Part shown: piece by piece, positions 12,505 through 42,465 of the stretch | Position numbering within the stretch: the first letter of the stretch is position 1 | How the letters are laid out: each line of letters starts with the position of its first letter | From: Rahnella bruchi | GTDB lineage: Bacteria > Pseudomonadota > Gammaproteobacteria > Enterobacterales > Enterobacteriaceae | Reading direction: 5' to 3' | DNA: 64,000 nt | NCBI RefSeq assembly: GCF_003614975.1 | Contig: NZ_QZWI01000008.1 | Span: 62,001 to 126,000 of the forward strand | Notes under the pieces: model-generated | Databases searched by the model: none | Told to the model about the DNA's origin: nothing | What the model saw: the letters and a program-made list of their open reading frames with translations, nothing else | Position numbers and translations under genes: made by a program

Positions 12505-13245
12505 TTATTCCGGCATCACCGAATGTTTTCCGCAAAAACCGGCGTTCTGCAAAATATGCTGGCCGGTTTCTGAAAGAATAAATTCTGCCAGCGGTTTTCC
12601 TTTTTCGGTGCAGGTGGCCAGCGCGTAGATGGCGCGGACATTGTAATCTGCCGGAACATTGAACACTTCCAGCTCGTCATTCTCCCGCAGCAGCGTGGCA
12701 TAACTGGTGTAGCCGATAAACACATCTGCTTGCCCGCTGCAAATCAGCCATTCCGCCGCCAGTTTGCCTTCCGGCACTTTTGCTGACTTCTCACCGCCCA
12801 CCAGCCGTAAGGCTTTATTGCGCAATGCTTCTCCGGCACCCGGATGACGACGCTCAATATTTTCAAACATCTGCCAGGTATAGTCGCCGGAAGGATCATT
12901 TTTTGGCGTGGATGTCGCCAGCCGGAAACGCGAATCGAGTAATACCTTCAGCCAGTTGAGCGTTTCCAGTTCCGGCACTTTTCGCGCTGTTACACACAGG
13001 CTGTTGCCGCAAAAATTGTCCACTGACAGCGCTTTACCATGCTGCTGTAAAGCCAGCGGATGCGAAGTATTGGCGGAAGCAAACAGATCGGCTTTCTCAC
13101 CCTGTTCGATGCGCTCACGTAACAGCCCGGCAGGGCCGAACTCCGCATTGACTTTCGTGCCGGTTTTTTCCGTAAAGGCCTCACACAACGGTTGCCACGC
13201 CCGGCGCAGGCTACCTGCGGCCAGCACTTTGATTGAATTTGTCAT
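12505..13245 (-). CDS. ModA-like solute-binding protein without signal peptide
   Basis: A 246-residue protein with the fold of molybdate/tungstate-binding ModA proteins. KVLAAGSLRRAWQPLCEAF at residues 6-24, the GPAGLLRERIEQGEKADLFASA segment and GYTSYATLLREN are characteristic. Unlike ModA it starts directly in the domain (MTNSIKVLAAGS) with no Sec signal, and the only good ribosome site (AAGGAG) precedes this ATG, so the product should be cytoplasmic unless exported otherwise. It lies 47 bases downstream of an exported metal-type binding protein that has a ModE-like operator in front. Oxyanion sensing or storage is possible. No permease or ATPase gene is nearby. Confidence 0.8.
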   Translation of the reverse strand: MTNSIKVLAAGSLRRAWQPLCEAFTEKTGTKVNAEFGPAGLLRERIEQGEKADLFASANTSHPLALQQHGKALSVDNFCGNSLCVTARKVPELETLNWLKVLLDSRFRLATSTPKNDPSGDYTWQMFENIERRHPGAGEALRNKALRLVGGEKSAKVPEGKLAAEWLICSGQADVFIGYTSYATLLRENDELEVFNVPADYNVRAIYALATCTEKGKPLAEFILSETGQHILQNAGFCGKHSVMPE

Positions 13246-13292
13246 CAGGTCTCCTTGTCACATTGCCTCAACAATAAACGCCGGGGATGAGG

Positions 13293-14381
13293 TTATTTCC
13301 CCGCGCGCGCCGCGTCTGTCGCGGGTTTAAAATCTGTCCGGTAGAAACGCTGGTAATAAGCGTCTGCCTGTTTTTGCATGTCAATGTCTGCGAATTTTTG
13401 CGGATACAGTTTTTTCGCCATCCACAGTTCACCCATCGCCAACGCTTCGGGCATCGGGTAGCCCCAGGCCTTGGCGTATTCCGGCATCAGATAAACACGA
13501 TGATTTTTAACGGCATCAATACTTTGCCATTTCGGATCACTGTTGATCTGCCCGACCACTTCCGGATATCTGTCCTGCACAAAAATCACCTGCGGATCCC
13601 AAGCGATCACCTGTTCCATCGCCACCTGTTTGAAGCCTTTCACGGTGGCGGCAGCCACGTTCATCGCACCGGCATGTGACATCATCAGCCCGGTATATTT
13701 ACCGGAACCGTAAGTGGTCAGGTCTGGATTTGCCATGTACGTGCGGATCCGCTGTTCAGGCGGAATATCTTTCAGACGCCCGGCGGTCAGTTTGCGCTCT
13801 GAAAAAGTATAGTCGATCAATTCCTGAGCCTGTTTAGGGTGATTAACCACTTCGCCAATCAGGGCGATGCCTTTCCTCAGCCCTTCGCTGTACGCCTTAT
13901 CTTCATCAGGCAGCACCGGATTCATCTTATGTTCTTCGCCTTTGGGATCATCACGCAGTGAAATCGCGACCACTGCAATCCCGGCCTGGCTGATCTGGTC
14001 GATCATTTCCTGCGGCGCATAGTTGGTGACAAAAACCACCTGCGGATGAAGCGCGACGACGCTTTCCAGATTCACACTGGTCAGGTCGCCCACTTCCGGC
14101 GTTTTGGCAAGTTCCGGCGCGAGGCGGACATAACCGCTGCCCAGCTGTTTCTGCCAGTTATTTAATACGCCTACGATATCTTTGGTGGCATCGAGCTGAA
14201 CCAGCAGATTCAGGGTCTGATGTTGCAGAACAACCACGCGGTCAACTTTATCGGGGATCGTGACCTGACGGCCAAGCTGGTCAGTTATCTGGCGTGAGGC
14301 CAAAGCAGAAGGGGAGACAAAGCTCAGGGCAAGCCCGATCAGGGCGACCGAAGGTAAAAAGCGGGATGATAATGCGCGCAC
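13293..14381 (-). CDS. Periplasmic binding protein of the FecB/BtuF/MolA class
   Basis: A 362-residue exported protein. Residues 1-28 are a Sec signal peptide ending ALA (LIGLALSFVSPSALA). The mature part is a type III periplasmic binding protein: ITDQLGRQVTIPDKVDRVVVL opening, DIVGVLNN, LESVVALHPQVVFV, and the long linker helix before YGSGKYTGLMMSH. This class binds ferric chelates, B12 or, in Haemophilus MolA, molybdate/tungstate. A ModE-like box at 14400-14423 and the ModA-like gene downstream favour the last. It starts with GTG behind AGAGGA. Iron-siderophore binding remains the alternative, though no Fur-box match is seen. Confidence 0.85.
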   Translation of the reverse strand: MRALSSRFLPSVALIGLALSFVSPSALASRQITDQLGRQVTIPDKVDRVVVLQHQTLNLLVQLDATKDIVGVLNNWQKQLGSGYVRLAPELAKTPEVGDLTSVNLESVVALHPQVVFVTNYAPQEMIDQISQAGIAVVAISLRDDPKGEEHKMNPVLPDEDKAYSEGLRKGIALIGEVVNHPKQAQELIDYTFSERKLTAGRLKDIPPEQRIRTYMANPDLTTYGSGKYTGLMMSHAGAMNVAAATVKGFKQVAMEQVIAWDPQVIFVQDRYPEVVGQINSDPKWQSIDAVKNHRVYLMPEYAKAWGYPMPEALAMGELWMAKKLYPQKFADIDMQKQADAYYQRFYRTDFKPATDAARAGK

Positions 14382-14399
14382 GGATAAATCCTCTGGTTT

Positions 14400-14423
14400 C
14401 GTTGTGCAGAGGATTATATAACG
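14400..14423 (-). promoter_or_regulatory. Candidate ModE (molybdate-response) operator
   Basis: Read on the minus strand, CGTTATAT and ACAACG flank ten bases, 19-42 bases upstream of the GTG start of the periplasmic binding protein. The E. coli modA operator, as I recall it, has the same 24-base layout: CGTTATAT, ten bases, ATAACG. Here one of the fourteen half-site bases differs. This would allow repression when molybdate is plentiful. No experimental support can be claimed. Confidence 0.5.
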
Positions 14424-41448: not shown

Positions 41449-42450
41449 TTAATAGAACTTACGCAAATCCATACCGTGATACATCGACGCCACCTGCTCG
41501 GCATAACCATTGAACAGCAGGGTTGGCTGGCGCTGCACGTCGAGCAATCCGCCCGAACCGATAAATCGCTCCGTTGCCTGCGACCAGCGTGGGTGGTCAA
41601 CATGCGGGTTCACGTTGGCGTAAAATCCGTATTCATTTGAGGCAATCTGGTTCCAGGTCGTCGGCGGTTCATCTTTGGTGAATTTGATATTCACAATGGA
41701 TTTAATCCCCTTGAAGCCATACTTCCAGGGAATGGTCAGACGGATGGGTGCCCCGTTCTGAGGGGGAAGGGCTTTGCCATAAACTCCGACCGTCATCATC
41801 GCCAGCGGGTTCATCGCTTCATCTATACGTAACCCTTCGACATAGGGGTAATTGAGCCCGCCGCCGATAAACCGGTCTTTCTGACCGGGCATATGTTCCG
41901 GGTCATATAAGGTCGTAAACGCGACATAACGCGCATTGCTGGTCGGTTCGGCGAGTTTGAGGATTTCACTGAGCTGGAAGCCGACCCAGGGCACCACCAT
42001 CGACCAGGCTTCGACGCAACGCATCCTGTAGATACGCTGCTCAAGCGGGAAGCGCTTCATGATGTCATCCATATCCAGCGTCATCGGCTTGCCGACCTCG
42101 CCATCAATGGTGATTTTCCACGGTGATGTGACCAGTTGCCCGGCATTGGCTGCCGGATCGGCTTTATCGAGCCCGAATTCATAGAAATTGTTATAGCCGG
42201 AAACTTTATCTTCCGGCGTCAGCGGCAGATCATTCTGGTAGGCAGCAGGTTTAGTGAAATCGAGCGGTTTGCCTGCAGGCGCAGGTGGCCGGTCGTGGCC
42301 TTTAAACCAGGAAAGCAGGTCAGCCCTGGCGTTTTGCGGGATGGCAAGCGCCGCTGCACTGATCCCCAGTGCCTGTAAGACTTTGCGCCGGTCATGGAAA
42401 ATATCTTCGGGTGTGACATCGGCTTCAGTGAGTTTGCGGGGTTTGAACAT
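41449..42450 (-). CDS. msrP: Periplasmic methionine-sulfoxide reductase, Mo subunit MsrP
   Basis: A 333-residue molybdenum-cofactor enzyme that repairs oxidised methionines in envelope proteins. The N-terminus carries a twin-arginine export signal ([24 protein letters not shown]), so it is exported folded. The cofactor Cys lies in [20 protein letters not shown], and [22 protein letters not shown] belongs to the sulfite-oxidase fold. It starts at [18 protein letters not shown] with GGAG six bases upstream. It is cotranscribed with msrQ. As a molybdoenzyme it links to molybdate supply. Confidence 0.95.
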
Positions 42451-42465
42451 AGCATTCTCCGGCAT

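Follow-up and report, generated by a model that had tools for sequence, protein, structure and literature searches.

Solute-binding proteins of the Peripla_BP_2 family are known to bind siderophores, heme and vitamin B12, and the ModE regulon of enterobacteria takes in modA, moaA and dmsA. The closest described counterpart of the locus considered here is MolBC-A of Haemophilus influenzae (HI1470-HI1472), a low-affinity molybdate importer with a gene named 'modA' (HI1469) adjoining it, in which the affinity of MolA is quoted as about 100 uM (PMC3928620). Molybdate represses molB of the same organism 10-fold, through what is termed an 'unknown factor' (PMC4031551). A ModA-type protein outside the classic ABC role is also found in Pseudomonas aeruginosa, where ModA is secreted by the T6SS (PMC9769707), although we take this as an analogy only. 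Within the titles, abstract openings and passages that our literature search covered, there was no account of a MolA that lacks its transporter, or of ModE at molA; a printed link between ModE and the mol genes may nonetheless exist.

The window, a stretch of 64,000 nucleotides from Rahnella bruchi, encodes a MolA orthologue and a ModA-like protein behind a putative ModE-type operator; ordinary parts in an unusual assembly, with a binding protein and a signal-less ModA but no importer. Like the Haemophilus system, the locus has a ModA-like gene beside a mol gene (assuming that HI1469 belongs to the same group); it differs in that the pair stands alone, with no molC next to it and no MolB anywhere in the host genome. 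The features are as follows.

14400 to 14423, minus strand: putative ModE-type operator, CGTTATAT-N10-ACAACG, upstream of molA (from sequence and pattern search)
14413 to 14418, minus strand: TATAAT, a -10-like element within the operator (by sequence)
13293 to 14381, minus strand: molA orthologue, a periplasmic solute-binding protein (Peripla_BP_2) with a GTG start preceded by AGAGGA (by homology and tree)
14298 to 14381, minus strand: signal peptide of MolA, residues 1-28, ending in SPSALA, Sec-type (read by eye)
13250 to 13260, minus strand: Shine-Dalgarno-like AAGGAGA of the ModA-like gene, with an in-frame TGA just upstream (from sequence)
12505 to 13245, minus strand: ModA-like protein (SBP_bac_11, PRK03537 group), without a signal peptide, 47 bp after molA

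A preliminary description of this DNA had assigned the first gene to the FecB/BtuF/MolA class of binding proteins, and its place within that class is now clear: it is an orthologue of Haemophilus MolA, matching HI_1472 with an E-value of 1.6e-142, far above other Peripla_BP_2 proteins (the next solved structure scores 1.5e-29), such that identity as a siderophore or B12 receptor is ruled out. Homology to HI_1472 spans residues 30-353, thus starting after the leader, and of the named relatives those closest in MolA belong to Rahnella; among NCBIfam models none reaches 1e-30 against the protein. Long motifs are identical in HI_1472, and on this basis the protein would be expected to bind molybdate or tungstate.

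The second gene has, as had been anticipated, the ModA fold: its predicted structure (pLDDT 94.8) matches Lmo1041 (7tav, Z 26.0) and ModA (1wod, Z 23.6). The protein passes the general modA model TIGR01256 (71.6 against a cut-off of 62.5) and PRK03537.1-4 (288.6 against 288), but scores only 35.4 bits with the enterobacterial ModA model PRK10677, where the cut-off is 253. Of the ligand residues of E. coli ModA (Ser12, Ser39 and a Tyr), the protein retains Ser12 and the Tyr, whereas an Ala sits in the place of Ser39; a loop is also remodelled or extra. It therefore shares the SBP_bac_11 fold with ModA of ModABC, whilst differing in its pocket, in its model group and in having no signal peptide. 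On this last point, the in-frame TGA upstream of the start leaves no room for a leader, as the frame allows at most 12 residues ahead of the AAGSL motif. When 94 such genes (the window's included) were examined by open frame, fewer than 20 residues were possible before the motif in 40; a longer frame was open in 53, each of which has a start codon 1-10 residues before the motif, and the one remaining row is incomplete and has no AAGSL motif. The ModA-like protein thus seems to remain cytosolic.

The minus strand at 14423-14400 reads CGTTATAT-AATCCTCTGC-ACAACG, a single mismatch from CGTTATAT-N10-ATAACG, which we take to be the ModE operator dyad. A spacer of 18 nt separates it from the GTG at 14381, and the operator-like box proposed for this position is borne out. 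Because a TATAAT lies inside it, ModE binding would be expected to cover the promoter; a sigma-70 promoter scan at the box returned no full sigma-70-like site, and we therefore infer the -10 at 14413-14418. A switch at the RNA level was considered and rejected, with 0 Rfam matches over the gathering score between 11500 and 16000.

The host genome (5.5 Mb in 63 contigs) encodes both ModE and ModA. Searching all of it with the box pattern at 0-1 mismatch gave six distinct places, five of which precede moaA, modA, a WtpA-like SBP gene (an assignment that scores under that model's cut-off), a dmsA/ynfE-type reductase gene and molA; the sixth sits within a long ORF. At the boxed modA locus, modE is divergent to modA and the box lies 47 nt before the modA start, so that this box is, like that of molA, near a start. 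The molA box has the layout seen in the enterobacterial ModE regulon, as at the E. coli sites, but its target is the molA and ModA-like pair. Saying this, at 2 mismatches the pattern matched 18 forward and 24 reverse sites against 12 and 20 for a reversed-pattern control (42 against 32 strand matches), which is barely above control; with enrichment across the genome near absent at this level, the pattern by itself proves little. As a separate observation, the box between the WtpA-like SBP gene and copA (G000:C1:773129-773152) is perfect, and a ModB/WtpB-like permease gene lies behind that SBP gene.

Conservation is more telling. We looked for the best box within 260 nt upstream of the conserved TDQ codons at 108 MolA loci (105 different protein rows): it has at most 3 mismatches at 103 of them. 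The same was true of 0 of 108 control stretches (often coding) taken 400-660 nt ahead of those codons, and of 16 of 540 sequences made by dinucleotide shuffling of the upstream regions; an exact TATAAT occurs in 52 of 87 distinct boxes. The operator is therefore conserved across MolA loci, and a chance origin is ruled out on this conservation, though not on the 2-mismatch counts across the genome. With the MolA orthology, this lends support to the orphan molybdate/tungstate module that had been predicted from the sequence. The box is missing at five loci (L086 in G117, L147 and L169 in Proteus, L188 and L189). Absence of the regulator is excluded as a cause, since a ModE-type protein is encoded in all five genomes and, more widely, in 27 of 27 tested, of which 13 score above the model cut-off and the rest have E-values of 1.2e-47 or better. 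The two Proteus loci carry the molA and ModA-like pair with no recognisable box, in genomes that encode ModE. The repression of molB in H. influenzae could be explained, in kind, by a ModE box that covers the -10; ModE is thereby put forward as a candidate 'unknown factor' in the repression of Haemophilus molABC (PMC4031551).

Amongst the genes next to the pair there is no permease or ATPase, as previously described, and a LysE-type exporter is encoded immediately upstream; for MolB the absence extends to the whole host genome, where the best match has at most 47% identity, whilst MolB orthologues are 53-95% identical to each other. A MolB hidden elsewhere is rejected, as five (L012-L016) of the nine FecCD matches reach no more than 43% to MolB orthologues. 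The search for the MolC ATPase, confined to the locus, found none beside molA. Relatives have a fuller order, molA-molB-molC-modA-like, from which molBC is gone here. The 63 contigs of the assembly might suggest that molBC has fallen within a gap, but molA and the ModA-like gene lie 47 bp apart on one contig, and less than 300 nt apart in 22 of the 53 genomes in which both genes share a contig, including some that are assembled into one or two contigs; as an account of the adjacency, an artefact is refuted and has practically no probability left.

The same loss is seen more widely. A MolA search of an order-wide sample gave some match in 133 of 295 genomes; 19 of the 295, the host included, hold a match of at least 62% identity, the rest among the matches listed being at most 39%. 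A box is present at 18 of these 19 loci. Ten have molB beside molA (matches of 54-100%, where 100 is the query itself and the other nine are 54-96%) and nine, the window among them, do not; in all nine the best MolB match in the whole genome is at most 47% identical. In a named scan of the best 80 of 271 relatives, a choice biased to the window's own clade, molB is lacking from the fetched stretch in 60 and present there in 20. A less biased sample of 198 genus-diverse genomes has 54 with both proteins and 140 with neither at the E limits used; MolA occurs alone in two (G500 and G112) and the ModA-like protein alone in two (G475 and G414, the latter a genome 49% complete). The two genes are less than 300 nt apart, too close to accommodate molBC, in 22 of the 54 and 1.7-2.4 kb apart in 31, with one pair across two contigs; the longer gap is read as molBC by its size, the sequence having been seen for genomes shared with the order-wide sample. 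This recurrence of the pair without a transporter suggests that it is probably useful without a pump of its own. The two proteins are not obligate partners, however, since the fetched stretch of 7 out of 71 transporterless loci yielded no ModA-like gene.

In family f9 (121 genomes, which we infer to be Pasteurellaceae), MolA occurs in ten. In seven it is accompanied by molBC; L189 has just the pair, L186 just molA, and in L190, left out of the counts, molA lies in two frames and is apparently broken. Seven of the nine kept loci have a box. These three exceptions lie apart from the large transporterless clade described below.

On a MolA tree of 108 rows (105 different; quick support method), the transporterless label needs three changes, and 69 transporterless rows form one clade with an SH-aLRT of 99 by that quick method, leaving two outside it (L186 and L189). 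The clade spans Yersiniaceae, Erwiniaceae, Enterobacteriaceae, Hafniaceae, Budviciaceae and Morganellaceae. Between the window and eight Rahnella, Ewingella and Hafnia relatives, molA has a dN/dS of 0.06-0.13 and the ModA-like gene one of 0.03-0.12; the ranges are 0.06-0.09 and 0.17-0.23 in three other transporterless pairs, and 0.04-0.07 and 0.06-0.14 in four transporter-bearing pairs. The sampled pairs are under strong purifying selection. It is very improbable, then, that the pair is a relic decaying after transporter loss: molBC is indeed gone, and in some members the ModA-like gene was also not found, but such a reading sits badly with the dN/dS of molA in the tested pairs, with the conserved box and with a single clade over six families. 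A tentative reading, which we think possible, is that the binding protein shed its transporter mainly once and then spread through these families, as a stand-alone, ModE-controlled buffer of periplasmic molybdate or tungstate; with a cytosolic, signal-less ModA it would form an oxyanion reserve in two compartments and not an import system.

Residue patterns in MolA speak to two further alternatives. Across all 108 rows, with and without transporter, 77 columns are invariant. Columns 97, 104, 105, 107 and 129 are fixed in 37 of 37 transporter-bearing rows and relaxed in the 69-row clade, whereas columns 125, 128 and 257, with others, are tightened there: Glu125 is found in 67 of 69 rows against 25 of 37, and an acidic residue at 128 in 68 of 69 against 5 of 37. 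Conversely, residue 274 is Asp or Glu in 28 of 37 transporter-bearing rows and in 20 of 69 of the clade. We hold it to be unlikely that both proteins now serve another ligand, be it an oxyanion or a metal complex, whilst keeping the Mo-responsive switch: the substitutions specific to the clade, the ligand range generally known for Peripla_BP_2 and a ModA-like pocket unlike that of ModA would all fit, but the invariant columns and the motifs identical in HI_1472 do not, and the kept ModE box argues for molybdenum.

Alternatively, MolA may now serve a different importer of the FecCD type (type II), and so still be a normal importer subunit, which we consider rather doubtful. One such FecCD permease, with an ATPase gene, lies at G000:C3:67149-69064 with no adjoining binding-protein gene; the gene upstream of it resembles, by eye, an amino-acid permease. 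Residues 125 and 128 lie on a helix that we presume, from an alignment by eye, to match the BtuF helix bearing a docking Glu, and their tightening in the clade would suit a new partner; the relaxation of columns 97, 104, 105, 107 and 129, and the retreat of the acid at 274, which we guess to be the second docking acid, point the other way. The C3 permease, the one permease tested (picked for having no binding-protein neighbour), is present in 22 of 22 transporterless genomes, as against 18 of the 31 whose gap is the size of molBC (Fisher p 0.0003, uncorrected for kinship), but also in 40 of 145 other genomes; it has no box within 2 mismatches, and may have its own binding protein elsewhere in the genome, such as C2:214578.

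Taken together, we favour a model, which on balance we think just about probable, in which the pair is a ModE-repressed, two-gene remnant of molBC loss, in which MolA is an accessory binder in the periplasm and the ModA-like protein a binder in the cytosol. We suggest that molBC was lost from a molA-molB-molC-modA-like operon to leave the two-gene unit; that, when molybdate is plentiful, ModE-molybdate would bind the box overlapping the -10 and repress the pair; and that Mo limitation would free it, together with the boxed modA and WtpA-like importer. Exported MolA might then bind molybdate or tungstate in the periplasm and pass its ligand to another importer, with the ModA-like protein binding, and perhaps buffering, the incoming oxyanion in the cytosol. 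The MolA orthology, the boxed Mo-related genes (5 of 6), the box at 103 of 108 loci, the absence of MolB, the single supported clade, the purifying selection, the joint occurrence of the two proteins, the invariant MolA columns, the ModA fold of the second protein and the molybdate repression of Haemophilus molB all favour this remnant model. Against it stand the five box-less loci in genomes that encode ModE, the 7 of 71 without a ModA-like gene, the altered ModA-like pocket and the affinity of Haemophilus MolA, which at ~100 uM is poorly suited to scavenging. At this locus a binding protein has been retained in the absence of its cognate permease, alongside an apparently cytosolic protein of ModA fold, and the possible functions of a solute-binding protein that lacks a pump are thus opened to experiment.

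The preliminary description had also drawn attention to MsrP as a molybdenum enzyme encoded in the window. An MsrP-type Oxidored_molyb gene is indeed present (41449-42465, minus strand), but it lies ~27 kb away and is one of four such genes in the host genome, three of them elsewhere, so that a special tie to the pair was dropped. Among the relatives, molB of a Symbiopectobacterium locus (L138) is read as two overlapping frames; at two loci (L084 and L088) a further FecCD-type permease, its ATPase and an SBP-like gene lie divergent to molABC; and one pair (L123) is carried on a 927 kb Pantoea plasmid (pSOD02).
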